Under the pieces are notes generated by a model. It had not been told where the DNA came from, ran no database searches, and was given only the letters and a program-made list of their open reading frames with translations. Positions 1,873 to 33,262 of a stretch of 33,262 nt of DNA are shown piece after piece (position 1 is the first letter of the stretch; each line of letters starts with the position of its first letter). The stretch comes from Candidatus Rokuibacteriota bacterium. Its GTDB lineage: Bacteria; Methylomirabilota; Methylomirabilia; Rokubacteriales; CSP1-6. The position numbers and the translations under genes were made by a program. The DNA is taken from positions 1 through 33,262 of the forward strand of contig JAHFDN010000025.1 of NCBI GenBank assembly GCA_023248995.1, written 5' to 3'.

Positions 1873-3171
1873 ATGTGGCTTGCGTTCGACTTCCTCTGGC
1901 TCCCGTTCCTCGCCTGCCTCGTGCTGACCGGGATCCATGCCTACCTGGGCCTCCACGTCCTGGCCCGCGGCGTCATCTTCGTTGACCTGGCCCTGGCCCA
2001 GGTCGCGGCCCTCGGGATCACCATCGCATTCTTGGCCGGCCACACGATCCAGAGCGACGCTGCCTACTGGTACGCCCTGACGTTCACGGTCGGTGGGGCT
2101 GTCCTGTTCTCGGTGAGCCGGTTCCGCCGCGCCCCCATTCCCCAGGAGGCCATCATCGGGATCGTGTACGCGGTGTCGGCAGCGGCGGCCGTGCTGGTCG
2201 TGGATCGAGCCCCACAGGGCAGCGAGCACATCAAGCAGCTTCTGGTCGGAAGCATCCTCACCGTCACACCGAAGGAGGTGGGCGCCCTCGCGATCCTCTA
2301 TGCCGTGATCGGAGCGCTCCACTGGGCGATCCGCCGGCCGCTTCTTCAGATTTCCTTTGACCCGGAGGCCGCCCTCCGCCAAGGACGATGGATCCGCTGG
2401 TGGGACTTTCTTTTCTACGCTTCGTTTGGACTGGTCGTGACCAGCTCGGTCAGAATCGCCGGGGTCCTCCTCGTCTTCTCCTACCTCATCGTCCCGGCGG
2501 CCGTCGGGGCCCTCCTCACCCGGTCGGTCACCGGCCGCCTGACGATCGGCTGGGCGCTCGGCTCTCTCGTGAGCGTGATCGGCCTTTCGGCTTCCTACCT
2601 CTGGGACCTTCCGACCGGCGCCACGGTGGTGACCACTTTCGGCGCCCTTCTGGCCGCCGTGGCCCTCGGGCTGGGCGTGCGCACGCTCATCCAAGAACTC
2701 AGGCAGCGTGGCCTAAGTGCCCTCATTGGCGTGGGAATTGCTGGGTCTGCCATCGTCGGGATGCTCGGCCTCTTGCTAGTTCTCTTCCCCCAGATGGACC
2801 ACCATTGGCTCAACTGGGTCGAGGAGGCGGCGCCATCCGTCCAGCTCCTATTCCTCACCCCCCGGGAGCGCCAGACGTACTGGGACAGTCAGGAAGCCAT
2901 CCGGAAAGGGCTGGCCGACCTCCAGCGCCTCCGCGCCTTTCAGCAGGAGGTCCAGTGGGGAACGCGACACATGCCGGCAGACCAAGAGGAGCGGCTCCGT
3001 CAATTCCTGGCGGGACGGAGTGAGATCACCGCGGGAGATCGGCTCGTGCTCAGGACGCTCAGAAGCAAGGCGCGGGAACGCCAGCGCTACTGGCTAGGAG
3101 TTCCACTGTTCGCCGTCGGAGGCGTGGGCGCCCTCGCTCTTGCGCGGGCGCGGCGGCGAGGGACAGCCTAA
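1873..3171 (+). CDS. Metal ABC transporter permease (ABC-3/ZnuB family) with C-terminal extension
   Basis: Inner-membrane permease that would take metal from the preceding binding protein. Residues 1-270 form the multi-helix ABC-3 core ([56 protein letters not shown]). The usual family length is about 260-290 aa; this protein has 432. The extra 150 residues contain another helix ([20 protein letters not shown]), a soluble charged helical segment ([19 protein letters not shown] to [11 protein letters not shown]) and a final helix ([17 protein letters not shown]). No ATPase gene lies next to it: upstream is the binding protein, downstream a convergent gene overlapping by 4 nt. The permease must borrow an ATPase from elsewhere or have another role. 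A truncated paralogue of the core lies at 32931-33262. Confidence 0.88.
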
Positions 3172-13040: not shown

Positions 13041-13778
13041 TCAACTGAGCCCGCGCATCACGAGCCAGACCGCCAGCAGCGCCAGGAATCCCAGCACCAC
13101 CCGGTTGAAGGTGACCTGATCCACTCGGTCCTGCGTCTTGAGACCCAGCCAGAAGGCGCCGAGCCCGACCACCGTCGCGAGGACCGACAGGCCGAACACC
13201 CGCCACGTCAAGAGCCCGAAGTAGATCACCGAGGCAAGCTGGGCGACCTTGTAGACCAGGAACGAAAAGGCGATGGAGCGGATGAACTCGTCCTTGCCCA
13301 TGCCGAGGGCATAGAAGTAAATGGCCAGCGGGGTGCCGGGCACGTTGGTGACGCCCCCGAGCACTCCGCAGAGGAGACCCACCGGGGGCGAGAGGTAGCG
13401 CTCGAGGTCGGGCCGCACGCGGAGCGAGAAGCGGCCCACGTTCACAACCACGAAGAGGAGCACCACCGCGCCCAGGATGAGCAGAAGTCTCGGCGAGGAG
13501 ATCCAGACGAGAAGCTGCGTGCCGACGAACGTGCCGCCGATGCCGAACAGATACAGGATCCAGTGGCGCCTGAGGGTGCGGACGAGGCCGGGCTTGCGGA
13601 GGACCTGGATGCCGTCCATGAGGATATTGGGGAAGATCAGGACCACGATGGCTGTCCGGAGATCCACGAACAGGGCGAGGAGTGGAGTGGCAATGGTCGG
13701 GAAGCCGAAGCCGATGACGCCCTTCACGTAGGACGCCAGGAGCACCGCGAGGAGGCTCAGCCCCGCAGGGACTCCCAC
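13041..13778 (-). CDS. TauE/SafE-family sulfite/sulfonate exporter-type permease
   Basis: A 245-residue inner-membrane protein with about eight hydrophobic segments. TauE/SafE features: LLASYVKGVIGFGFPTIATPLLALFVDLRTAIVVLIFPNILMD in the first repeat and VGLLCGVLGGVTNVPGTPLAIYFYALGMGKDEFIRS in the second, the two G-x-G-x-P hairpins of the family. Such proteins move sulfite, sulfoacetate or other organic anions; the substrate here is unknown. GTG 13778 is chosen; it overlaps the end of the FAD/Fe-S dehydrogenase gene by 22 nt, so the two form an operon and the permease might carry that enzyme's acid substrate (inference). Confidence 0.88.
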   Translation of the reverse strand: MGVPAGLSLLAVLLASYVKGVIGFGFPTIATPLLALFVDLRTAIVVLIFPNILMDGIQVLRKPGLVRTLRRHWILYLFGIGGTFVGTQLLVWISSPRLLLILGAVVLLFVVVNVGRFSLRVRPDLERYLSPPVGLLCGVLGGVTNVPGTPLAIYFYALGMGKDEFIRSIAFSFLVYKVAQLASVIYFGLLTWRVFGLSVLATVVGLGAFWLGLKTQDRVDQVTFNRVVLGFLALLAVWLVMRGLS

Positions 13779-16618
13779 AGCACCTCGGCGGGATGCTTGG
13801 CGCGGCGGCCGGCCAGGTGCTCGATCTGCTGCCGGCAGGAGATTCCCGGGGCCACGATCTCCATGTCGGCGGCCGCGGCCTTGACGGCCGGGACGAGCCG
13901 ACGGTTTCCGAGGGCGACGGAGAGATCGTAGTGCTCCCGCTCGAAGCCGAACGAGCCGGCCATTCCGCAGCACCCGGAGTCCACCTCCTGCACGTCGAAG
14001 CCGGCCCACGTGAGGGCCGACACCGTGGGTGCCATCCCGACGAGCGCCTTCTGGTGGCAGTGGCCGTGGAGCAGCGCCTTCCGGCCGTTCCCGGCGAACG
14101 GTAGCGAGAGCCCGCTCTTTCGCTCGCGCTCGAGGAACTCCTCCAGGAGGAGGCTCTGCTCCGCCACCCGCCTCGCCGCGTCGCTCCGGAGCAGATCCAC
14201 GTACTCGTCCCGGAGGGTCAAGAGACACGACGGCTCGAGGCCGACGATGGCCACGCCCCGCCGCGCGTGAGGCAGGAGCCGCTCCACGTTCCACGCCGCG
14301 TGGGCCTTGGCCTCCGCGAGCATGCCCTTCGAGATGAGCGGTCTCCCGCAGCACTTCTTGTCCACGAGCGTCACGCGATAGCCTGCCCGTCCGAGCAGCC
14401 GCACCGCGGCGATCCCGACGTGGGGCGCGTTGTACGTGACGAAGGTGTCGTGGAACAGGACCACCTCGCCCCGGGGCGCGGGCGCCGACTGCTCATGACG
14501 GGCGAACCAGTCGGCGAACGTCCGACGCGCGAAGCAGGGAAGCGGCCGGCGCCGATCGATCCCGACGAGGCGCTCGAGGGCCCAGCGGTGAAGCCCGGAT
14601 GCGGCGACCCAGTTGGAGACCGGCGCGAGGCGAGAGGCGAGCCGGCTGAGCGACTCGATCCGGCCGAACAGCCGGTTACGGAGCGGTAGGCCGTTGGCCC
14701 GGTGGTAGTGGGCCAGGAACTCGTACTTGAGCTTCGCCATGTCCACGTTCGAGGGGCACTCGGCCTTGCACGCCTTGCACTCCAGGCAGAGATCCATGAC
14801 CTCATAGAGCCGTCGCCCCGTGAAGTCCGAGGCCGGCACCTGCCCCGACAGGACGGCGCGGAACGCGTTCGCGCGCCCCCGCGTCGAGTGCTCCTCATCG
14901 CGGGTGACCATGTACGACGGGCACATCGTCCCTTCCAGCTTCTTCCGGCAGACGCCGACGCCGTTGCACATCTCCACGGCGGCGGCAAACCCGCCCTGCG
15001 CCGAAAAATCGAGCGTCGTGGCCGGCTCCCAGGTCCTGTACTCCGGCCCGTAGCGGAGGTGCTCCGTGATGCCGGGGCTGTCCACGAGGTTGCCCGGGTT
15101 CATCAGATTCTTCGGATCGAAGGCGTGCTTGAATTCGCTGAACGCCCGAAACAGCCGTGGTCCGAAGACGCGCTCCAAAAACGGGCTCCTCGCCCGCCCG
15201 TCGCCGTGCTCGCTCGAGATTGCGCCGCCGAACTCCAGGACGAGGTCCACAATCTCATCCGCGATGGCCCGCACCTGCTCGAGTCCCCGGCGCGTTTTCA
15301 GGTTGATCAGCGGGCGGATGTGGATGCACCCGACCGAGCAGTGGCCGTAATAGGCCCCCTCGGCGCCGTGCTCGGCCATGATCTCGCGGAAGCGCGGCAC
15401 GAAGGTAGGCAAGTGCTTCGGATCCACCGCGGTGTCCTCGATGAAGGCGATGGGCTTGGAGTCGCCCTTCATACCCAGGAGGAGCCCCAGCCCCGCCTTG
15501 CGCAGCTTCCAGATGGACTGCTGCTCCGCCGGATCGTAGGCCGCGTGGGAGGCGTAACCGAAACGGCCCCGGGATCGCCGCGCTTCGAGCGCCTCGACCT
15601 TGCTCTTCACCTCGGCGTCGCTGTCACCGGCGTACTCGACGATCAGGATGGCGACCGGATCCCCCTGGACGAACCCCATCCGCTTGGACTGCTCGATGTT
15701 TCCCCTCGCCAGATCGAGGATCATCTTGTCCGTGAGCTCCACCGCGTACGGCCCCGTCTCCAGAATCGCCTGGGAGGACTCGAGCGCCTCGAGCATGTCG
15801 GCAAAGTGGATCACGTCGAGCGCGGTCCTCTTCGGCCGGCCCACCAGCCGCATCTTGGCCTCGACCACGGTGAGCAGGGTGCCCTCGGAGCCCACCACGA
15901 GGCGCGCCATGTTGAGCGGGCGGTCCTTGACCAGCTCGTCCAGGTTGTAGCCGCACACGCGGCGCCAGTACTTCGGGTAGCGCGCGCGGATCTCCCCGCG
16001 GTATTGGTCCCGCAGCCGCGCCACTTCGCGGTAGATCTGCCCCTCGAGCCCGGGGACGTTCATCTTGGCCCGGAAGGCCTCCGGGGGCACTTCCCCGAAC
16101 ACCGCTCGGCTGCCGTCGGCGAGGAGCGCGGTCACCTCGATGACGTGCTCCACCGTCAGGCCGTAGACGATGGAGTGGGCGCCGCCCGAGTTGTTGCCGA
16201 TCATGCCGCCCAGCGTCGCCCGGCTGGACGTGGAGGTATCAGGGCCGAAGAGCAGTCCCAGCGGGTGGATATGCGCGTTCAGCTCGTCCTGGATCACCCC
16301 GGGCTCCACGCGGCACCAGCCCTCCTCCGGGTTGACCTCGAGCACGCGGCTCATGCGAGGGGAGAAGTCGAGCACGACCGCGCGGTTGACGGTCTGCCCG
16401 GTCAGCGACGTGCCGCCGCCGCGCGGGAGGATCGGCACGTTCTGCCGGTTCGCGACCTCGATCGTCGCCTGCACGTCCCCCGCATGCCGCGGGATCACGA
16501 CGCCGATGGGCTCCATCTGGTACATCGACGCGTCGGTCGCGTAGAGCAGCCGCGAGTACCGGTCGAAGCGGACTTCGCCCTCGACGACTCGACGAAGGTC
16601 GTGCTCGAGCCCGGTCAT
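13757..16618 (-). CDS. FAD-binding and Fe-S-binding dehydrogenase (D-lactate/glycolate/2-hydroxyglutarate type)
   Basis: A 953-residue protein that fuses a GlcD-like flavin domain to a GlpC-like iron-sulfur domain, oxidising a 2-hydroxyacid and passing electrons toward the quinone pool. FAD domain: PRHAGDVQATIEVANRQN, PRGGGTSLTGQTVN, GGMIGNNSGGAHS and VVGSEGTLLTVVEAKMRL; C-terminal cap with GHCSVGCIHIRP and SSEHGDGRARSPFLE. Two 4Fe-4S motifs follow (CNGVGVCRKKLEGTMCPSY and CLECKACKAECPSNVDMAKLK, about 545-620), then two cysteine-rich CCG motifs (DKKCCGRPLISKGM and DSGCCGMAGSFGFE). All key cysteines are intact. ATG 16618 starts 7 nt after a TATAAT on the same strand, suggesting a leaderless message. 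The exact substrate is not assignable. Confidence 0.93.
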   Translation of the reverse strand: MTGLEHDLRRVVEGEVRFDRYSRLLYATDASMYQMEPIGVVIPRHAGDVQATIEVANRQNVPILPRGGGTSLTGQTVNRAVVLDFSPRMSRVLEVNPEEGWCRVEPGVIQDELNAHIHPLGLLFGPDTSTSSRATLGGMIGNNSGGAHSIVYGLTVEHVIEVTALLADGSRAVFGEVPPEAFRAKMNVPGLEGQIYREVARLRDQYRGEIRARYPKYWRRVCGYNLDELVKDRPLNMARLVVGSEGTLLTVVEAKMRLVGRPKRTALDVIHFADMLEALESSQAILETGPYAVELTDKMILDLARGNIEQSKRMGFVQGDPVAILIVEYAGDSDAEVKSKVEALEARRSRGRFGYASHAAYDPAEQQSIWKLRKAGLGLLLGMKGDSKPIAFIEDTAVDPKHLPTFVPRFREIMAEHGAEGAYYGHCSVGCIHIRPLINLKTRRGLEQVRAIADEIVDLVLEFGGAISSEHGDGRARSPFLERVFGPRLFRAFSEFKHAFDPKNLMNPGNLVDSPGITEHLRYGPEYRTWEPATTLDFSAQGGFAAAVEMCNGVGVCRKKLEGTMCPSYMVTRDEEHSTRGRANAFRAVLSGQVPASDFTGRRLYEVMDLCLECKACKAECPSNVDMAKLKYEFLAHYHRANGLPLRNRLFGRIESLSRLASRLAPVSNWVAASGLHRWALERLVGIDRRRPLPCFARRTFADWFARHEQSAPAPRGEVVLFHDTFVTYNAPHVGIAAVRLLGRAGYRVTLVDKKCCGRPLISKGMLAEAKAHAAWNVERLLPHARRGVAIVGLEPSCLLTLRDEYVDLLRSDAARRVAEQSLLLEEFLERERKSGLSLPFAGNGRKALLHGHCHQKALVGMAPTVSALTWAGFDVQEVDSGCCGMAGSFGFEREHYDLSVALGNRRLVPAVKAAAADMEIVAPGISCRQQIEHLAGRRAKHPAEVLWESLRG

Positions 16619-16625
16619 GCCCCAC

Positions 16626-16658
16626 ATTATACCCGCGGTCCCCGATCGGCGGTATACT
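16626..16658. promoter_or_regulatory. Divergent -10 elements for two probably leaderless genes
   Basis: On the minus strand TATAAT (16631 to 16626) is followed by 7 nt and then ATG 16618. On the plus strand TATACT (16653-16658) is followed by 6 nt and then GTG 16665. In both directions the expected transcription start falls at or next to the start codon and no Shine-Dalgarno sequence is present. No convincing -35 boxes are seen. Confidence 0.5.
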
Positions 16659-16664
16659 GGCGGG

Positions 16665-17174
16665 GTGCGACGCATCTTCGGTCTGGGGCTGGCTCTGGCG
16701 TTAGCGTGGAGTTTCCCGGCCGCGGGGTGGGCTCACCCCTCGGCGCCGGCCTTCACGCTCCGGCTCCTCGACAGCCGTAAGACGCTCGACTCGCGCTCCT
16801 ACCTCGGAAGGAAGGTCCTGGTCGTCCGCTTCCAGGCTTCGTGGTGCAATCTCTGCGTGCGGGAAGCGCCCTCCTTCGAGCGCGCGTACCGCAAGTACAG
16901 GTCGCGAGGGGTGGAGTTCGTCGGGATCCAGGTGCTGGACACCGAGGCCGACGTGCGAAGGTTTCTCAAGGCCCACGGCGCGACTTATCCGGCGGGCCTC
17001 GATCCGAATCTGACGATCGCCAATCGATTCGGCTTCCAGCGCACGCCCTACACGATCGTCATCTCGCGAAAGGGGGAGATGATGGCGAGGATCCACGACT
17101 CCGCGGACGAGACCCGGCTCGCCAAGGTGATCGAGCCACTCCTCGCCCGCTCGGCCAAGCCCCGCCAGGGCTAA
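16665..17174 (+). CDS. TlpA-like periplasmic thioredoxin
   Basis: A 169-residue thiol-disulfide oxidoreductase with an N-terminal signal peptide (RRIFGLGLALALAWSFPAAGWAHPS) and a TlpA/ResA-type thioredoxin fold: FTLRLLDSRKTLDSRSYLGRKVLVVRFQASWCNLCVREAPSF. The active site is WCNLC (an ordinary Cys pair), and the cis-Pro is in GFQRTPYTIVISRKGEMM. TlpA/ResA proteins reduce cytochrome c or copper-site cysteines during maturation. GTG 16665 is chosen rather than an upstream in-frame start because the signal peptide begins there and a TATACT box lies just before it. It is divergent from the FAD/Fe-S dehydrogenase and convergent with the ROK gene. Confidence 0.88.
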   Translation: MRRIFGLGLALALAWSFPAAGWAHPSAPAFTLRLLDSRKTLDSRSYLGRKVLVVRFQASWCNLCVREAPSFERAYRKYRSRGVEFVGIQVLDTEADVRRFLKAHGATYPAGLDPNLTIANRFGFQRTPYTIVISRKGEMMARIHDSADETRLAKVIEPLLARSAKPRQG

Positions 17175-17190: not shown

Positions 17191-18249
17191 TCATCCGCCG
17201 CCTGCCGGGGCTCGCTCGGTCTCGTAGAGGTAGAGAGCGGCGCCCCCCAGCACGGCGGCCCGCTTGTCCAGGGACAGCAAGCTGATCCGCGTCGTGACCA
17301 GGGCGCGCCTGAAGGCGTACTCGGCGACCCAGCCGAGGACCCTGGACTCCAGCGGGATCAGCGACTCGGCCACCCCGCCCGTCACCAGTACGACCTCCGG
17401 ATTCAGGGCGTTGACGATGACTGCCAGCCCCGCCGCCAGCGCCTGGCAGATCTCCTCCACCAGGACCCGGGCTCCGGCGTGGCCGGCGCGCGCCGCCTGG
17501 AACACCGCCGGGGCGCCGACGTCCGGCCCGAGGTCGGGGAGGTCCCGGCGCGCGCGCTCGGCGATCTCCCGCCCGGACACGTAACTGTCGAGCCACCCCC
17601 GGCCGAAGGCGGACGTCTTCGGCGCATCGAAGTTGATGGGAACGCAACCAATCTCCCCGCCGTAGCCGCCTTCGCCGCGGACGAGGCGGCCGTCCAGGAT
17701 GATCCCGCCGCCGACGCCGGTCCCGAGCGCCAGGAGGACGAGAGAGCGGGTTCCCCGGCCGGCGCCGAAGAGCCACTGGCCCAGGGCGAGGAGGTTCACG
17801 TCGTTGTCCACTCGCGCGCGGAGGCCGTAGCGGGCGGCGAGACGATCGGCGAGCGCACAGCCCGCCAGCTCGGGCACGTTCTTGATGTCCTCTCCCACGA
17901 TCCCGCGCGCCGCGTCCACGACGCCGGGCACGCCGGCGCCGATGGCGAGGAGCGTGATTCCCTGCGCCTTGGCCATCGCCACGAGCTCATCGGCCAGGTC
18001 GAAGATCGTCCCGAGCGCCCCGCCACGCTCCGCCGCGTGGGTAGGCGCCTGGGAGTGCGCAAGCGTCTCGCCCTCAGGCGTGACGAGTCCGGCCGCCGTG
18101 ACGCTTCCGCCGACGTCGAGGCATAGAATCGCCTCACGACCCGAGCCACGTAAAGTGGCTCGGGTGCCCGCGGAGGTGGCTCGCCTCCGCTCGCGACGAC
18201 CCGCGCCAGTAGCGCGGGTGCCCGCAGGGGTCGCTCGCTTCGCTCGCAT
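17191..18249 (-). CDS. ROK-family protein (sugar kinase-like) with repeat-derived N-terminus
   Basis: A 352-residue protein. The ROK core starts at about residue 41: ILCLDVGGSVTAAGLV (phosphate loop), VPGVVDAARG, VDNDVNLLALGQWLFG (catalytic Asp region), VLLALGTGVGGGIILDG and VLVTGGVAESL. The usual zinc site (His plus CxCGxxGC after GGEIG) is absent: the sequence reads YGGEIGCVPINFDAPKTSAFGRGWL, so kinase activity is less certain. Residues 2-40 are basic, Arg/Ala/Thr/Gly-rich, and contain a 20-residue repeat (RATPAGTRATGAG, RATSAGTRATLRG) encoded by two palindromic DNA elements. No ATG, GTG or TTG occurs between them and the core, so ATG 18249 must be used. That ATG is 1 nt after the deacetylase stop, giving translational coupling. 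Confidence 0.86.
   Translation of the reverse strand: MRAKRATPAGTRATGAGRRERRRATSAGTRATLRGSGREAILCLDVGGSVTAAGLVTPEGETLAHSQAPTHAAERGGALGTIFDLADELVAMAKAQGITLLAIGAGVPGVVDAARGIVGEDIKNVPELAGCALADRLAARYGLRARVDNDVNLLALGQWLFGAGRGTRSLVLLALGTGVGGGIILDGRLVRGEGGYGGEIGCVPINFDAPKTSAFGRGWLDSYVSGREIAERARRDLPDLGPDVGAPAVFQAARAGHAGARVLVEEICQALAAGLAVIVNALNPEVVLVTGGVAESLIPLESRVLGWVAEYAFRRALVTTRISLLSLDKRAAVLGGAALYLYETERAPAGGG
18139..18246 (-). repeat. Tandem pair of palindromic elements inside the ROK coding region
   Basis: Unit A: ACCCGAGCCAC (18139-18149), GTAAA loop, GTGGCTCGGGT (18155-18165), then CGGAGG/CCTCCG (18171-18176 with 18184-18189). Unit B, 60 nt further: ACCCGCGC (18199-18206), CAGTA loop, GCGCGGGT (18212-18219), then GCCCGC and TCGCTCGCTTCGCTCGC. 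Both units share the order hairpin, GCCCGC, GGNGG-type arm, GCTCG. The 60-nt period keeps the reading frame and gives a 20-aa protein repeat. Confidence 0.8.
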
Positions 18250-18250
18250 G

Positions 18251-19003
18251 TCACTCAAGATGGCCGAAGTGGCCGAGCCGGATGCCGCGCGCGTCCACGC
18301 TCTCGCGCACCCGGGGATCGGTGAGCCCCTCGAGCTCCACCTCGCGCTGCGGGCCGTAGCGGCTCCCCGCGAGGTCCGGGTCGAAGTAGCCCGGGTGGGT
18401 CATGAACTCGGACACGCCGTCCGGCAGCGAGGCCAGATGCGCCAGGAGACGCTCGGACGACCAGTAGGCCTCCGGGCCGGACTCGCCCATGAAGTGATCC
18501 GGCGTCCTGAGCTTGAGCCGCCGCGCGGCGGCCCGGACCAGGGCGTCCTGGCTCCTCACCGGCACCCTGATGGCTTGCGCGAACTCCAGGATCAGCGCCA
18601 GGATCGGCTCGTGGCGCCCCACGTGGTGGTGACTGTCGAGATGGGTGGGAAACCGTCCCATGAGCTTCCTGAACGCGTCGATCTGGGCGCCCAGCTCGAT
18701 ACGCGCCTCTTCGGCCTTGGCGCGCGCCGCCGCCTGCCGCGCGTCCCGCACGAACTTCCCCTCGCCGTCCACGAGCGAGGGCACGCGCCGGGGATCGGAG
18801 ACTGGAGCGCCGAGGGTCAGGTTCAGGTGGAGGCCCACGCCCAGGGCCGACGCCTTCAACGCCCCCACGAGCGCGAGATCCATCGGGCGGTTCACGAGCA
18901 TCGTGGTGCTGCTGACGATGCCCTTGCCATGCGCCTCCAGGATCCCCCGGCTCACACCGGCCGTCAGGCCGAAATCATCGGCGTTCACGATCAGACGCTT
19001 CAC
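18251..19003 (-). CDS. YdjC/ChbG/HpnK-family carbohydrate deacetylase
   Basis: A 250-residue polysaccharide-deacetylase-like enzyme that removes N-acetyl groups from amino-sugar substrates (chitooligosaccharide or hopanoid glycoside in named members). Motifs: RLIVNADDFGLTAGVSRGI (catalytic Asp pair), VGLHLNLTLGAPVS (metal His), THLDSHHHVGRHEPIL (metal His cluster), EFMTHPGYFDPDL near the end. All are intact. GTG 19003 starts inside the stop of the upstream methyltransferase (GTGA overlap), and its own TGA is 1 nt before the ROK start. A deacetylase beside a ROK protein suggests amino-sugar handling (inference). Confidence 0.93.
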   Translation of the reverse strand: MKRLIVNADDFGLTAGVSRGILEAHGKGIVSSTTMLVNRPMDLALVGALKASALGVGLHLNLTLGAPVSDPRRVPSLVDGEGKFVRDARQAAARAKAEEARIELGAQIDAFRKLMGRFPTHLDSHHHVGRHEPILALILEFAQAIRVPVRSQDALVRAAARRLKLRTPDHFMGESGPEAYWSSERLLAHLASLPDGVSEFMTHPGYFDPDLAGSRYGPQREVELEGLTDPRVRESVDARGIRLGHFGHLE

Positions 19004-19701
19004 GCGGGTTTCGTCCCCTGCACCACGAAGCGTTCGACCGTCTTGGGGATCCCCGTTCGGGGGAGCGTTCCCTCGGTGTCCAGGCTCCGGATGTGATCCA
19101 GCCGCTCGTAGCCGATCCGCGGAAAGGCCTGGACCTCCCGTCCGATGACCCGGGGGGTGAGCCCCACCCCCTCGAGCTTCGAGGTCGCGACCTTCTGGCC
19201 GAGGAAGGCAAAGATCGTGAAGACGAGCCGGCCCCCGGGAGCCAAGTGACGCGGGGCGCCCTGGATGGCGCGATCCAGGATCTCCCAGCCGTCCACACCT
19301 CCGTTGTCCGCGACCGCGACGGGATCGTCCCGGTCGCGCCCCGGCGGGGTCGGCATCTGCGGCGGGTTGGTGCAGATCAGGTCGAAATTCAGCCCGGCGA
19401 CCGGATCATAGCAGTCCCCCAGCCTCACCTCGAGCCGATCCGCGACGCCGTTGAGCAGGGCGTTTTCGCGCGCGCAGGCGACCGCCTCGGGGACCACGTC
19501 CGTCGCCACGACGCGGCACCCGGCCCTTGCCGCGAGGATCGCCGCGAGACCGGCTCCGCACCCCAGCTCCAGCACGCGCTCCCCCGGCTCGACCCGGAGG
19601 TGCCGGCAAAAAAGCAAGGAGCCCGCTTTGGGGACCTGCACGCCGTCGGCGATCCTGACGAGCGCCCCCTGATAGACGTAGAGCAGGACCCCGTCGTCCA
19701 T
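19000..19701 (-). CDS. SAM-dependent methyltransferase (PrmA/HemK-like, small-domain type)
   Basis: A 233-residue class I methyltransferase. The SAM site reads RVLELGCGAGLAAILAARAGCRVVATDVVPEAVACARENALLNG; the acceptor motif is FDLICTNPPQMP, the NPP[YF]-type motif of N-methyltransferases acting on amides or bases. The N-terminus (GALVRIADGVQVPKAGSLLFCRHL) is a substrate-entry cap. The target (protein glutamine, tRNA or rRNA base) cannot be named. GGAGG lies 5 nt before ATG 19701, within a small self-complementary GGAGGCTCC. It overlaps the deacetylase gene by 4 nt. Confidence 0.88.
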   Translation of the reverse strand: MDDGVLLYVYQGALVRIADGVQVPKAGSLLFCRHLRVEPGERVLELGCGAGLAAILAARAGCRVVATDVVPEAVACARENALLNGVADRLEVRLGDCYDPVAGLNFDLICTNPPQMPTPPGRDRDDPVAVADNGGVDGWEILDRAIQGAPRHLAPGGRLVFTIFAFLGQKVATSKLEGVGLTPRVIGREVQAFPRIGYERLDHIRSLDTEGTLPRTGIPKTVERFVVQGTKPA

Positions 19702-19717: not shown

Positions 19718-20029
19718 CTAGCGCCCCTGCACCTTCCTGAAGTAGAGGCGGAGCGCTTCCTTCAGCTGCGCCCGGGCACCCGGGGAGCTCTTGGCGTCCT
19801 CCAGCTCCTCCAGATCAAGCTGAAGGGGCACCCCTTCTTTCTTGACGCCGTCCAGCTCGGCCGTGAGCCCGCAGCGCTCGTCGGACTCGGTGAAGACGAC
19901 CTTGGCCTTCTTGAAGCTGCCATCGTCCTGGGCGATCTGCTGGATCGTCTCCGTCAGAAGCTGCTTGATCGCCTCGGCCTCGGCTGTCGGGACGGTCGAG
20001 AACGCGGCGATGAGATCGATCTCGGCCAT
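19718..20029 (-). CDS. Small acidic protein of unknown function
   Basis: A 103-residue soluble protein with no recognised family. It begins AEIDLIAAFSTVPTAEAEAIKQLLTETIQQIAQDD, then a strand-like FKKAKVVFTESDERCGLTAELDG and an amphipathic helix ARAQLKEALRLYFRKVQ. It follows the selenoprotein gene by 6 nt; its ribosome-binding site (GAGGAAAGG) lies within the last codons of that gene, so expression of the two should be coupled. A functional link with the CMD-like selenoprotein is therefore plausible but unproven. Confidence 0.72.
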   Translation of the reverse strand: MAEIDLIAAFSTVPTAEAEAIKQLLTETIQQIAQDDGSFKKAKVVFTESDERCGLTAELDGVKKEGVPLQLDLEELEDAKSSPGARAQLKEALRLYFRKVQGR

Positions 20030-20035
20030 GGCGGT

Positions 20036-20287
20036 CTACCTTTCCTCATCCCACACCTTGAGGATGTCGGCGTGGGTCTTGGCGGCGTTGGCCCGGATGG
20101 CGAAGCTGATGGCCTCGCGGATCTCGTCCTCGGTCGCGCCGGCGGCCCTGGCACCTGCCAGGTCTCGCTTCGCTCAGTGGGTGTTCCCCGCCGCAAGGTT
20201 GGCGGCGAGATAGCAGAGGGATGCGGTCTTGGGGTCCAGCACGCCCTTCTTGTAGCGCCAGCTCGCGATCACCTTTTCCTCAACCAT
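20036..20287 (-). CDS. CMD/AhpD-like small redox protein, probable selenoprotein (Sec38 at TGA 20176-20174)
   Basis: An 83-residue single-domain carboxymuconolactone-decarboxylase/AhpD-like protein if the in-frame TGA is read as selenocysteine. It reads VLDPKTASLCYLAANLAAGNTH-[TGA]-AKRDLAGARAAGATEDEIREA, then ISFAIRANAAKTHADILKVW. Against the family pattern (LAA.LAA.C..C..YH...A...GAT.EEI.EA) this aligns without gaps and places the TGA at the second Cys of CxxC; the first Cys is Asn35 and the usual His position is Asp42. A hairpin with an AGGU loop follows. GGAGGAGA lies 5-7 nt before ATG 20287. The gene overlaps its upstream neighbour by 8 nt and precedes the next start by 6 nt, so it sits inside an operon. 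Standard gene finding would call a 37-aa stub or nothing. A peroxidase or thiol-redox role is inferred from family. Confidence 0.86.
20147..20162 (-). promoter_or_regulatory. SECIS-like hairpin directing UGA recoding in the CMD-like gene
   Basis: Read on the minus strand, CCTGGC (20162-20157), loop AGGT (20156-20153) and GCCAGG (20152-20147) form a perfect 6-bp stem and tetraloop, with a further G-C pair beyond an A-G mismatch. The loop begins at nucleotide 18 after the TGA. The hexamer GCAGGT occupies nucleotides 16-21 after the TGA, the same place as GCAGGU in E. coli fdhF. The loop is identical to that of the DsbA-like gene. Confidence 0.82.
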
Positions 20288-20909
20288 CGTGGCTCTCCTC
20301 CCTGGGGAACTTGAACGGATGAAGCCGACAGGTCCAGACGCCTCCCTGGTTCTCGATGGCGAGGCGAACGTGAACGAAGCCGTCGCGATGCGTGGTCCAG
20401 AGAAAGACCGAGGCATCCTCGGCCTCCCCGCACCCGTCGCAGATCCAGGCCGTACCGAACCGCTCCGGCTCTCGCTGGAGACCCGCGTGTGCCTCGGGGG
20501 TCACGAAGAGCGGCCCGGAGTCCGAGGGGAGGAAGGCGTTCAGGTCGCTCAGGTAGGGCAGCACCTCTGCCGGGGCGGTCTCGCCCCAGGCGTCGAGGAC
20601 GGGCAGCAGGGGGGCCCGGCGGCACGTGGCCACGAACTCCAGCTCGTCGCTGAGCCGGCCTTCCGCGACATCCAGGTCGCCGAGGAAGGCCCGGAGATCG
20701 GCCAACGTCACCTCGGCGCGGTAGAGACGGCCGGCGAACGCGCTCCGCTCGAGGGGCGCCAGCAGGAAGTACGGAGAAGCCGGCACCGGCTCCAGCACCG
20801 GTCCAGCGACCTGGTAGAGACGATCACCGCCCCGCGCCTCCCCCACGCCGTCGTACCAGATGAGGGTCGCCGTGAGACCGGGCTGAATCCAGGCAGGAGA
20901 CTCCGCCAT
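20280..20909 (-). CDS. Protein of unknown function with a C-terminal CxxC pair
   Basis: A 209-residue soluble protein with no recognised family and no signal peptide. Most of it is a mixed alpha/beta sequence (ATLIWYDGVGEARGGDRLYQVAGPVLEPV, SPYFLLAPLERSAFAGRLYRAEVTLADLRAFLGDLD). Near the C-terminus is FGTAWICDGCGEAEDASVFLWTTH, a CxxC that could bind metal or be redox active. The DNA encoding its final residues supplies the ribosome-binding site for the CMD-like selenoprotein, and the two genes overlap by 8 nt. GGAG lies 4 nt before ATG 20909. Confidence 0.75.
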   Translation of the reverse strand: MAESPAWIQPGLTATLIWYDGVGEARGGDRLYQVAGPVLEPVPASPYFLLAPLERSAFAGRLYRAEVTLADLRAFLGDLDVAEGRLSDELEFVATCRRAPLLPVLDAWGETAPAEVLPYLSDLNAFLPSDSGPLFVTPEAHAGLQREPERFGTAWICDGCGEAEDASVFLWTTHRDGFVHVRLAIENQGGVWTCRLHPFKFPREESHDG

Positions 20910-20946: not shown

Positions 20947-21444
20947 CTACCGCGGGAGGAGGGCGCTCCGCGTCTGGGTGATGTCCGTGAGGGTGTCACC
21001 GTCGAAGTAGAGCGTCCAGCCCGCCGGGTAGACCCAGGCTTCCTTCGCCTGCGGCTTGACAGCCGGCCAGAACTTGCCGGCCAGCTCCGCCATGCGCGCG
21101 GCGGCGTCGGTGGCCTCCCGGGGGGCGCCCAGCAGGAGCGTGATCTCCCCCTTCTTCATCCCCACCGTCACCTGGCGAAAGAGGCGCAGGTTGCCCACCC
21201 CATAGGAGCTCGCGATCACCGGATTGTCCCGGAGGAAATTCCGGACGCGGGCATCCATCTCCTCCTCGAATGTCTGCTTCTCGCCGAAGGTCGGACTTCG
21301 GCCATTGCTCGCCTGGAACCCGACCTTCCACATCTCCTCGGCCGTCGGGCCGTCGGTCGTCCGTTGCTCCGCGGTCAACCCGGCGCAGCCGGCGACGGCG
21401 ATGCCGACGACAAGGCCCATCCCGATCGCGCGCACGACTCCCAT
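20947..21444 (-). CDS. Lipoprotein with BamE/SmpA-like C-terminal domain
   Basis: A 165-residue lipoprotein. The signal sequence GVVRAIGMGLVVGIAVAGCAG ends in a lipobox (VAGC), so the mature protein should begin at a lipidated Cys near residue 20. The C-terminal half (LFRQVTVGMKKGEITLLLGAPRE ... EAWVYPAGWTLYFDGDTLTDI) has the G-x-x-K-x-E-[IV]-x-x-L-L-G-x-P and W-x-Y pattern of the SmpA/OmlA/BamE fold. BamE itself is smaller, so this is a relative rather than a clear orthologue. GGAGGGAA precedes ATG 21444; the gene follows the helicase gene by 10 nt. Confidence 0.8.
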   Translation of the reverse strand: MGVVRAIGMGLVVGIAVAGCAGLTAEQRTTDGPTAEEMWKVGFQASNGRSPTFGEKQTFEEEMDARVRNFLRDNPVIASSYGVGNLRLFRQVTVGMKKGEITLLLGAPREATDAAARMAELAGKFWPAVKPQAKEAWVYPAGWTLYFDGDTLTDITQTRSALLPR

Positions 21445-21454
21445 GCGTTCCCTC

Positions 21455-24172
21455 CTAAATCAGGGCCGATTCGAGGACGATCCCGCGGTCAATGACCCGC
21501 GCCGCCTGCCCCAGGAGGGCCGCGAGGGAGGTCGTCACCTCCGAGGACTCCGCGAGCTGACGCAGGAGATCGATGAGTCGGCGCATCGCGCGGATCAGGT
21601 CCCCCTCGTGACCGCCGAAGGACTCTTCGACGATGCCGGTCCAGCCGTCGTCGCCGGACGCCCACCGATGGACCGCCGGCATGAACCCGGCGTGAACGGC
21701 CACCGGCAGCGGGAGGTGACGGGCGCGCTGGGCCTGCCACACGGCCTCCGCGGCGGCTTCCATCTGGTGAAGCTTCTTCCTCAGGCCCGGGCGCTTCTTC
21801 AAAAAGACGCGCCAGGCCGCGTGCTCCCCCGACCGCGCCTCCTCGAGCAGGCACGAGCAGAGGGCGGCTGCCTCCGCCAGCGGAACCCCCTCAAGGATGC
21901 GGCGATCCACGATCTCGGCCACCAGCAGCTCGTTGTCGTGGCGGATTCCCGCCACCAGCCGACCCTTGGCCTCGAGCACGCCGGCCCGGACCGCCCCGAA
22001 CTCTTCCAGCACCTCCACCACGCGGCAGAACTCCTGCCAGTACGCGCCCTTCAGGGCGCCGAGCGCCTCCTCGCGCTGGCGGAACCTGCTCTCGAGCTTC
22101 TCGATCTGCTTCCACGCCTGCTCACACCGGGGTTGAGCGCTCCAGGGGCAGCGGTGGCATTCGATGCTGGCGAACTGGGCCTGGCTTCCGTGCCCGCGCT
22201 CGCGCTCGAGGAGGTCGCCGAGGGAGAGCTCCGAGAGCTGCGCCACGAGTCCCTTCGGACGTTGCCGCCAGTCGCGCGGCACCGCCAAGGGCGGCGTCGC
22301 CCAGAAGATCTTCTTGATGTTTCCGGACTTGACCCGCACCACCGCGCCGTGGGGGAGCAGGGCGTCCACGAGGACACGCGACGCCCGCACGCTGTGGATG
22401 GAGACAACCGCGGCCAGGCTGCCTCCGCCGCGACGGCGCAGCAGGACGAGACGACCCGGCTCGGCCTCGGCCACCGCTTCCCCCCGCCGATGGCCTCCCC
22501 GCCCGAGGGCCCGCCGTTGGGCCTCGGCTTCGGCCCGCAGCTGCCGGTAGCGGCCGATGCGCCCGAAATCCCCGCACGGCGCCTCATAGCCTCGTGCTTC
22601 AGCCAGCGCCGCCTGGAGCTCTTCGACCTCCTGCGCCAGGGCGCGGATCCGTTTCAGGTTCTGATACTGCCCGAAGGAGGATTCAACAGTGCGCCGGATC
22701 GTCTCCTGGTCGTGGCCGGTTCCCAGCAGCAGGGCCACCGAGCCGTACCCGAGCCTGAACTGGCTCTCCACCGGTTCCGGCGGCCCATCCACAGTGCGCA
22801 GGGCCTCCTCCAGGCTGTCGCGGCTGTCGAGGGCGAGGACGCACTTGCCCTCCGGGTCGATCCCGCGCCGCCCGGCCCGCCCGGCCATCTGCGTCAACTC
22901 GTTGTGGGTGAGGCCTCGAAAGCCGCGATCGGTCCGCTTGGTCAATCCCTGGAGCACCACGCTCCGGGCGGGCATGTGGATGCCGAGGCTCATCGTCTCG
23001 GTGGCGAAGACCACCCGGCAGAGGCCGCGCTCGAAGAGGTGCTCGATGAGCCGCTTGAGACTCGGCAGGATGCCGGCGTGGTGGAGGCCGATCCCCATCC
23101 CGAGGGCCTCGAAGATCGTCTGGTTCAGCGGCGACTCGGCCATCGCGGGGCTCTCTTGCGTGGCCTCCCCGATCGCGCGCTCGACCTCATCCTGCTGCGG
23201 CCGCGTCAGGAGCGGCTTGCCTTTCGCCAGGTAGCTCTCCATCGCGCGCTCGCACCCCGCCCGGCTGAAGATGAAGTAGATCGCCGGAAGCCACCCGCGC
23301 GCCTCCAGCTCCTCGATCGCCAGCGTCGGGTCCGCCACGCGACGGGGAACCCAGCGGCGGCCATCGCCCCCGCGCTCGTCCGAGCGACCGGCGAGACCCA
23401 CCTTCCCCCGCCGCACCGCCTCCAGCGGATGAATCTCCCCGGTGACGTCGGCCACCAGGTACTCGAGCGGCACCGGGCGATGGGGATGGATGACGGGCAC
23501 GATGGGGCGATGGACGAGGCTGATCCAGTCCGCGATCTCGGCGATGTTGGCGACGGTGGCAGACAGCGCGACCAGCGCCGCCTCCCGAGGCGCGCTGACG
23601 ATGGTCTCCTCCCACACCGTACCCCGTCCCGGGTCGCCCATGTAGTGACACTCGTCCAGGACCACCGCCGCCAGCCCGGGAAGCCCACCCGCGTAGAACA
23701 TGTTGCGGAGGATCTCCGTGGTCATGATCAGCACCGGCGCGCGCGGGTTCACCTTGACGTCGCCGGTGAGGATGCCCACCTCCGCCACGCCCAACTGACG
23801 GCAGAAGTCGGCGTACTTCTGGTTGGAGAGCGCCTTGAGCGGGGTCGTGTAGGCAATCCGCCGGCGGCGCCGGAGGGCCTGGTGGATCGCGAACTCGGCG
23901 ATCAGCGTCTTGCCGGACCCCGTCGGGGCCGACACGATGACCGAGTCGCCCTCCAGGATCGCCCTGATCGCCCGGACCTGAAAGCCGTCCAGCGAAAACG
24001 GATAGCGGGCCTGGAAGCTCCTGTAGAGGTCGAGGTCGCTCGCGGCGAGGCGGCCCTCGCGGTGGGCGGCCTCGAGCTCCTTGGGCAGAATATCGGTGAG
24101 AATCGGGTCCCTCCCTGTCGCACTCAGCCTATCACGGGCTTGCTCCCCGGGAAAATCGACGCTAAGCTGCAC
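21455..24172 (-). CDS. Ski2/Mtr4/HelY-like superfamily II helicase
   Basis: A protein of about 905 residues resembling the DOB1/Ski2 group of RNA helicases. Motifs: Q-like FSLDGFQVRAIRAI, Walker A APTGSGKT (Lys88), TTPLKALSNQKY, DECH box at 173-176 (VVLDECHYMGD), SAT (LVALSATVANI), FIFSRAGCERA, ATETMSLGIHMPARSVV and motif VI TQMAGRAGRRGID. A long C-terminal region has a Cys cluster (ECHRCPWSAQPRCEQAW) and a DSHCT-like helical end. The start is doubtful: GTG 24172 is only 5 nt from the divergent ATG 24178 and lacks a clear ribosome-binding site. A better GGGAGG lies further in, before codons with no standard start. It heads a compact minus-strand run of eight genes. Confidence 0.9.
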   Translation of the reverse strand: MQLSVDFPGEQARDRLSATGRDPILTDILPKELEAAHREGRLAASDLDLYRSFQARYPFSLDGFQVRAIRAILEGDSVIVSAPTGSGKTLIAEFAIHQALRRRRRIAYTTPLKALSNQKYADFCRQLGVAEVGILTGDVKVNPRAPVLIMTTEILRNMFYAGGLPGLAAVVLDECHYMGDPGRGTVWEETIVSAPREAALVALSATVANIAEIADWISLVHRPIVPVIHPHRPVPLEYLVADVTGEIHPLEAVRRGKVGLAGRSDERGGDGRRWVPRRVADPTLAIEELEARGWLPAIYFIFSRAGCERAMESYLAKGKPLLTRPQQDEVERAIGEATQESPAMAESPLNQTIFEALGMGIGLHHAGILPSLKRLIEHLFERGLCRVVFATETMSLGIHMPARSVVLQGLTKRTDRGFRGLTHNELTQMAGRAGRRGIDPEGKCVLALDSRDSLEEALRTVDGPPEPVESQFRLGYGSVALLLGTGHDQETIRRTVESSFGQYQNLKRIRALAQEVEELQAALAEARGYEAPCGDFGRIGRYRQLRAEAEAQRRALGRGGHRRGEAVAEAEPGRLVLLRRRGGGSLAAVVSIHSVRASRVLVDALLPHGAVVRVKSGNIKKIFWATPPLAVPRDWRQRPKGLVAQLSELSLGDLLERERGHGSQAQFASIECHRCPWSAQPRCEQAWKQIEKLESRFRQREEALGALKGAYWQEFCRVVEVLEEFGAVRAGVLEAKGRLVAGIRHDNELLVAEIVDRRILEGVPLAEAAALCSCLLEEARSGEHAAWRVFLKKRPGLRKKLHQMEAAAEAVWQAQRARHLPLPVAVHAGFMPAVHRWASGDDGWTGIVEESFGGHEGDLIRAMRRLIDLLRQLAESSEVTTSLAALLGQAARVIDRGIVLESALI

Positions 24173-32930: not shown

Positions 32931-33262
32931 GTTGACAACGCTCTCTTTGAGGGCTGGCGCGTGCGTTGGTGGGACTTCCTCTTCTACGCCTCCTTCGGAG
33001 TGGTCGTCACCAGCTCCGTTCGCATCGCGGGCGTCCTCTTGGTCTTCTCCTACCTGATTGTCCCCGCCCTGGCGGGCATCATCCTCGGGGCCCGCGTCGG
33101 GACTCGGCTCTTGATCGGGTGGGCCTTCGGCACCGCAGTGAGCATCCTGGCCATGGTCGCCTCCGCCGCGCTCGATCTTCCGACTGGAGCGACCGTGGTC
33201 TGCGCGTTCGGGGTCGCCCTGCTCGCCCTCGGAGGGATCGTGCAAGTCGCCCGCCGGCGCGC
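32931..33262 (+). pseudogene. 5'-truncated second metal ABC permease (C-terminal half; runs off the window)
   Basis: The frame reads [20 protein letters not shown] then [21 protein letters not shown] and ends [13 protein letters not shown]. That is closely similar to residues about 170-270 of the permease at 1873-3171 ([19 protein letters not shown]...). The first roughly 170 residues of the family are absent: the homology begins about 25 nt after the stop of the CusF-like gene, and only a GTG at 32961 could start it. Half a permease cannot make a channel, so this is most likely a decayed paralogue, unless the true 5' part lies elsewhere. Whether it stays open past 33262 cannot be seen. Confidence 0.72.

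Follow-up and report, generated by a model that had tools for sequence, protein, structure and literature searches.

Selenoproteins of the CMD/AhpD type, whose occurrence in metagenomic surveys was rightly mentioned in the first-pass annotation of this DNA, have been reported since 2005, and in every case they are listed as CxxU. Those from the Sargasso Sea and GOS surveys contain a PF02627 or AhpD-like domain with selenocysteine (Sec) at the second position and a hairpin downstream, and all of them are listed with a resolving Cys. The GSU3128 family from Geobacter (NF041047, 'distant AhpD homolog') has the CMD core and carries Sec at the position of the second Cys; its listed motif is also CxxU. 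In a 2026 review covering 119 prokaryotic selenoprotein families and subfamilies, the CMD/AhpD entries are CxxU only, and no NxxU motif occurs in its text. The five-residue relay of AhpD from M. tuberculosis is formed by Glu118, Cys130, His132, Cys133 and His137 (PMC3141380). TTHA0727 from Thermus thermophilus (PDB ID 2cwq) has Ser70 at the place of the first Cys and is described as having no peroxidase activity (PMC3141380); hence, a CMD protein with one chalcogen exists among the Cys-containing proteins. RclX protects P. aeruginosa against HOCl/HOSCN (PMC7950407).

The window, that is, the whole stretch of 33,262 nucleotides analysed in this study, comes from a genome of 2.34 Mb (97% complete) whose nearest relatives are Candidatus Rokubacteria. 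Rokubacteria are uncultured bacteria of soil and groundwater. The minus strand of the window contains a gene, further referred to as NTHU, which apparently represents an undescribed subfamily, though a description among the newer selenoprotein families of Haft and colleagues is possible. The gene and its elements are as follows.

20036–20287, minus strand: NTHU, gene of a predicted 83-residue CMD-domain selenoprotein (ATG at 20287–20285, stop codon TAG at 20038–20036)
20174–20176, minus strand: in-frame TGA, codon 38, predicted to be read as Sec; TGA in 40/40 distinct orthologous sequences and in 41/41 survey copies
20147–20162, minus strand: SECIS-like hairpin CCUGGC-AGGU-GCCAGG with the loop at nucleotides +18 to +21 after the TGA; its codons are frozen
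20295–20303, minus strand: ribosome-binding site AGGGAGGAG, assigned from the sequence; AGGAGG-type sites precede most orthologues

The frame translates to MVEEKVIASWRYKKGVLDPKTASLCYLAANLAAGNTH-U-AKRDLAGARAAGATEDEIREAISFAIRANAAKTHADILKVWDEER, with a single TGA at codon 38. When Cys was put at the TGA, the Pfam CMD model (PF02627) matched residues 12–69 with 44.2 bits against a cut-off of 23. The match is one continuous stretch spanning the TGA, as expected from the earlier claim of one gapless CMD domain. The strong ribosome-binding site and the tight spacing on both sides, which had also been noted, were found as well: GGAGGAG is located close to the 5’-side of the ATG, the start of NTHU is overlapped by 8 nt by a 209-residue frame upstream, and a 103-residue frame (p103) starts 6 nt past the NTHU stop codon. 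The model NF041047 has 84 positions and thus belongs to the same length class. It matches NTHU with 46.2 bits, which is below its equivalog cut-off of 110, and its listed motif is CxxU as against NxxU. Since NTHU-type genes score below the cut-offs of curated selenoprotein models, they are likely annotated as truncated fragments or missed. The AhpD core domain (TIGR00778) was not among the matches of NTHU at E-values up to 1. We class NTHU as a variant subfamily within the CMD-fold selenoproteins and not with AhpD.

The fold was assigned by sequence match and structure prediction. The predicted model (pLDDT 87) has the helix-hairpin CMD/AhpD fold common to NTHU, M. tuberculosis AhpD and P. aeruginosa RclX / PA0269, and its top Foldseek and VIA matches are chains of the CMD family. 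Structural matches of the model yielded Z-scores of 9.3 for RclX, 8.4 for 3bey, 7.8 for 2ouw and 7.2 for TTHA0727, the latter being also the best sequence match of the NTHU profile in PDB. In the alignment with 2ouw and TTHA0727, Sec38 corresponds to the second Cys of 2ouw and to the Cys of TTHA0727, hence to Cys133 in the M. tuberculosis AhpD numbering, and His37 corresponds to His132. Cys130 is replaced by Asn35, His137 by Asp42, and the place of Glu118 is occupied by the variable residue 23. Therefore, the complete AhpD relay is absent, with only the His132 and Cys133 places remaining. Among orthologues, Asn35 is nearly invariant, whereas His37 and Asp42 are invariant. The alignment and the orthologues thus agree with the initial reading, in which Asn-Thr-His-Sec replaces CxxC and Asp substitutes for the usual His. 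TTHA0727 shares with NTHU the single chalcogen at the second position, but differs from it in having Cys rather than Sec, in its greater length and in being a hexamer.

The first-pass annotation further described Sec as the only chalcogen residue of the active centre. At the CxxC site this description holds; for the whole protein it does not, as it overlooked Cys25, the sole Cys of NTHU, invariant in all complete orthologues.

A second CMD selenoprotein gene, the CTSU paralogue (Cys-Thr-Ser-Sec), is encoded in the same genome (G000, contig C2, 4394–4597) and also occurs in many genomes of the family. The paralogue is 46% identical to NTHU and has Sec at the same place, and its hairpin carries a GGCC loop 18 nt after the TGA, at the same distance as in NTHU. 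In contrast to NTHU with its Asn, CTSU keeps the first Cys and passes TIGR00778 (30.4 bits, cut-off 27.8). Given that a protein with an ordinary CxxU is present in the same genome, NTHU is the unusual branch of the pair. The stretch just upstream of the CTSU paralogue reads N.

The genes surrounding NTHU in the window are listed below.

21455–24172, minus strand: DEAD/DSHCT helicase, syntenic upstream
20947–21444, minus strand: 165-residue lipoprotein-like protein, syntenic upstream
20280–20909, minus strand: 209-residue upstream neighbour of no known family; 8-nt overlap with NTHU, not conserved as a partner
19718–20029, minus strand: p103, conserved 103-residue downstream partner with the invariant Cys53 and a predicted hibernation-factor-like fold
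19000–19701, minus strand: HemK2/MTQ2-type methyltransferase, syntenic (TIGR00537, 104.7 bits, cut-off 87)
18251–19003, minus strand: YdjC/ChbG-family protein, syntenic
17191–18258, minus strand: ROK-family protein, syntenic

Most orthologous loci have the order helicase, 165-residue protein, [gamma-glutamyltransferase], NTHU, p103, HemK2-type methyltransferase, YdjC, ROK, with the gamma-glutamyltransferase present in 26 of 39 loci. The 209-residue protein had been proposed to form a gene pair with the CMD protein. This proposal failed: besides the window, a homologue of the 209-residue protein was found at only 2 of 39 tested orthologue loci, and it also occurs at loci without NTHU. The idea of a partnership was therefore rejected. 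The conserved neighbour is p103; in 16 of 35 loci it shares with the end of NTHU an identical overlap of a few bases, and 55 of the 95 phylum genomes contain it. As p103 also occurs in members of the family and the order that have no NTHU, its link to NTHU is loose. No Pfam or NCBIfam model matches p103 above the cut-off; its predicted model (pLDDT 90) resembles the ribosome hibernation factors HPF/RaiA in fold alone (Z-score 6.5, 81 residues, rmsd 3.0). Elsewhere in the window, a large fused protein of the FAD-linked oxidase / Fe-S type (972 residues) is encoded at 13757–16675 on the minus strand, and two ABC-permease-like frames near both window ends (1873–3171 and 32961–33260) share a near-identical stretch of 33 letters at the protein level.

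Taken as a whole, NTHU is likely a genuine CMD-fold selenoprotein with a redox cycle of Sec38 that would be resolved externally or by Cys25. In the proposed scheme, the downstream hairpin would direct SelB, which brings Sec-tRNA to codon 38 (UGA). The selenolate of Sec38, polarised by His37 and Asp42, would attack an oxidant or another electrophile, candidate targets being a peroxide, a hypohalous acid or a disulfide. In the absence of a CxxC partner, the thiol resolving the oxidised Sec would be external, belonging to a low-molecular-weight compound or to another protein, or might be that of Cys25. The role of RclX provides by analogy a hint at the substrates, and no more. The assignment of NTHU as a one-Sec redox protein, with a presumed reaction and resolving thiol, seems to us somewhat favoured; against it stand the replacement of three residues in the five-residue AhpD relay, the stated want of peroxidase activity in TTHA0727 with its Ser at the first Cys, and the lack of obvious peroxidase reductants among the operon neighbours.

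The invariant Cys25 may serve as an internal resolving thiol, and NTHU might then be a two-chalcogen enzyme in which Sec38 forms a selenenylsulfide either with this residue or with Cys53 of p103. Both residues have conservation in their favour, Cys25 as the sole and invariant Cys of NTHU and Cys53 as the one invariant Cys of a protein encoded directly 3’ of NTHU and often overlapping it. However, the position of Cys25 is held by Ile in the solved relatives and is core-like, two residues from the Glu118 site, and p103 is retained in family and order members that have no NTHU. We consider such an enzyme unlikely, though worth keeping in view. Still less probable is a function of Sec38 in binding or transferring a metal, a metalloid or an organic electrophile (e.g., arsenic or a methyl group) with no turnover of an oxidant. 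The loss of the CxxC of the dithiol cycle is consistent with it, and the next NCBIfam matches of NTHU describe fusions of an AhpD domain with an arsenite methyltransferase or another methyltransferase (NF041537, 41.9 bits; NF045649, 43.1 bits). These matches, however, are far under the respective cut-offs, no ars-type genes were recognised adjoining NTHU, and the methyltransferase of the operon is of the HemK2 type. A redox cycle of Sec38 remains the preferred reading.

The decoding of UGA 38 was addressed by comparison of orthologues. Six peptide patterns, including a Cys-specific one (AAGNTHCA), were run against 84,980 species. The scan yielded 30 close relatives, all of them from Rokubacteria and all with TGA at codon 38, and no Cys version. 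A six-frame profile survey of 95 genomes of the phylum identified NTHU in 40 of 57 family genomes. The 41 copies each contain one TGA, and none has Cys at codon 38. Two circumstances that would have spoken against Sec, namely a sequencing error and homologues with neither Cys nor Sec at this position, are at odds with these data: the TGA is identical in 40 genomes, and every orthologue has the Sec codon.

The genome encoding NTHU contains all four genes selA, selB, selC and selD, in line with the expectation that a selenoprotein is accompanied by sel genes. selB, selA and the tRNA-Sec gene are located within 5 kb of each other, and selD (contig C22, 271492–272433) has its own in-frame TGA at the active site, CAG-U-ASK. 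SelA was found in 84 of the 95 phylum genomes. With SelA so widespread, the presence of sel genes shows no contrast with that of NTHU across the phylum. Three carriers of NTHU (G077, G078 and G087) have no SelA, which is probably due to assembly gaps.

The hairpin with an AGGU loop noticed in the initial inspection was located at the distance given there. It consists of a 6-bp stem and a four-base loop beginning at the 18th nucleotide after the TGA. A perfect stem of at least 6 bp at a comparable place follows only 1.0% of the 784 TGA trinucleotides in the window (both strands). By itself the hairpin is only moderately stable (z = −1.9 relative to shuffled sequences), and conservation served as the decisive control. 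Over the 40 distinct orthologous sequences the bases of the stem show zero changes. Leu43 is encoded by CTG, Ala46 by GCC and Arg47 by AGG in 40 of 40 genes each; AGG accounts for 6% of other Arg codons in the same genes. Among 35 columns with four- or sixfold degenerate codons, these three are the only ones with zero entropy, and they are precisely the three that belong to the stem (rank probability, 1 in 6545). In these codon statistics related genomes count as if they were independent, the within-gene rank comparison being less exposed to kinship. An AGGU loop is present in 30 of 40 sequences, with the codons GCA in 31 of 40 (3% elsewhere) and GGT in 30 of 40 (9% elsewhere); the loop consensus is RGGN, and both G are unchanged in the 40 sequences. 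Because the stem never varies, no compensatory changes or covariation are visible over these sequences, and the codon freeze was used in place of covariation. No Rfam family matched within the window. The confinement of the synonymous freeze to the stem points to a SECIS element within the coding region, as expected of one.

Two other ways of reading UGA 38 can be given almost no weight. A true stop codon (in a frozen pseudogene or through a sequencing error, with only a 37-residue leader made) agrees with the ORF callers, which stop at UGA 38, and with TGA being an ordinary stop in this genome, but it is contradicted by the invariant residues downstream, by the same TGA in 40 genomes and by purifying selection at the protein level, which is stronger after the TGA (pN/pS 0.15) than before it (0.22), so that the post-TGA part is a working protein. 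Decoding as Trp, Gly or Cys via a suppressor or an altered genetic code, for which the open frame speaks and nothing more, is hardly credible, given that TGA terminates 7 of 35 orthologous genes and thus is not globally reassigned, that the Sec machinery is complete including the Sec-type selD, and that the SECIS-like hairpin is at the canonical place and frozen at synonymous sites. The conservation of the TGA, the TGA terminators and pN/pS accordingly led us to reject a stop codon, a sequencing error and a change of the genetic code. With orthologues, codon constraint and sel genes backing the 83-residue CMD/AhpD-like selenoprotein of the first-pass annotation, we infer from these comparisons that NTHU is almost certainly a true selenoprotein with Sec inserted in vivo.

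NTHU was not found in G048–G056 (genus g7), G057, G061, G064 and G070, and most of these genomes keep SelA. In the eight of these loci that were inspected, all from family genomes, the same neighbours lie next to each other and only NTHU is missing, which leaves a clean gap, and no Cys form was found there; such intact loci indicate that NTHU was gained or lost as a unit. No close relatives outside the phylum were identified among the 84,980 species, where two weak matches were seen, and none in plasmids. The phylum to which the PVC match belongs gave no relatives in 288 genomes, a result of little weight.

It is possible, if short of probable, that NTHU represents an outright selenium-dependent branch of the CMD family, with Sec lacking a resolving Cys, never replaced by Cys across the family, and set in a new combination of Asn-Thr-His-Sec and Asp. 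In that case the AhpD scaffold would carry a naturally occurring selenoenzyme with a single chalcogen. A protein in which Sec is family-wide and the resolving Cys is gone poses directly the question of why Sec is used and not Cys, and NTHU, whose 83 residues are few enough to be assembled entirely by chemical synthesis, is a system in which to test it.
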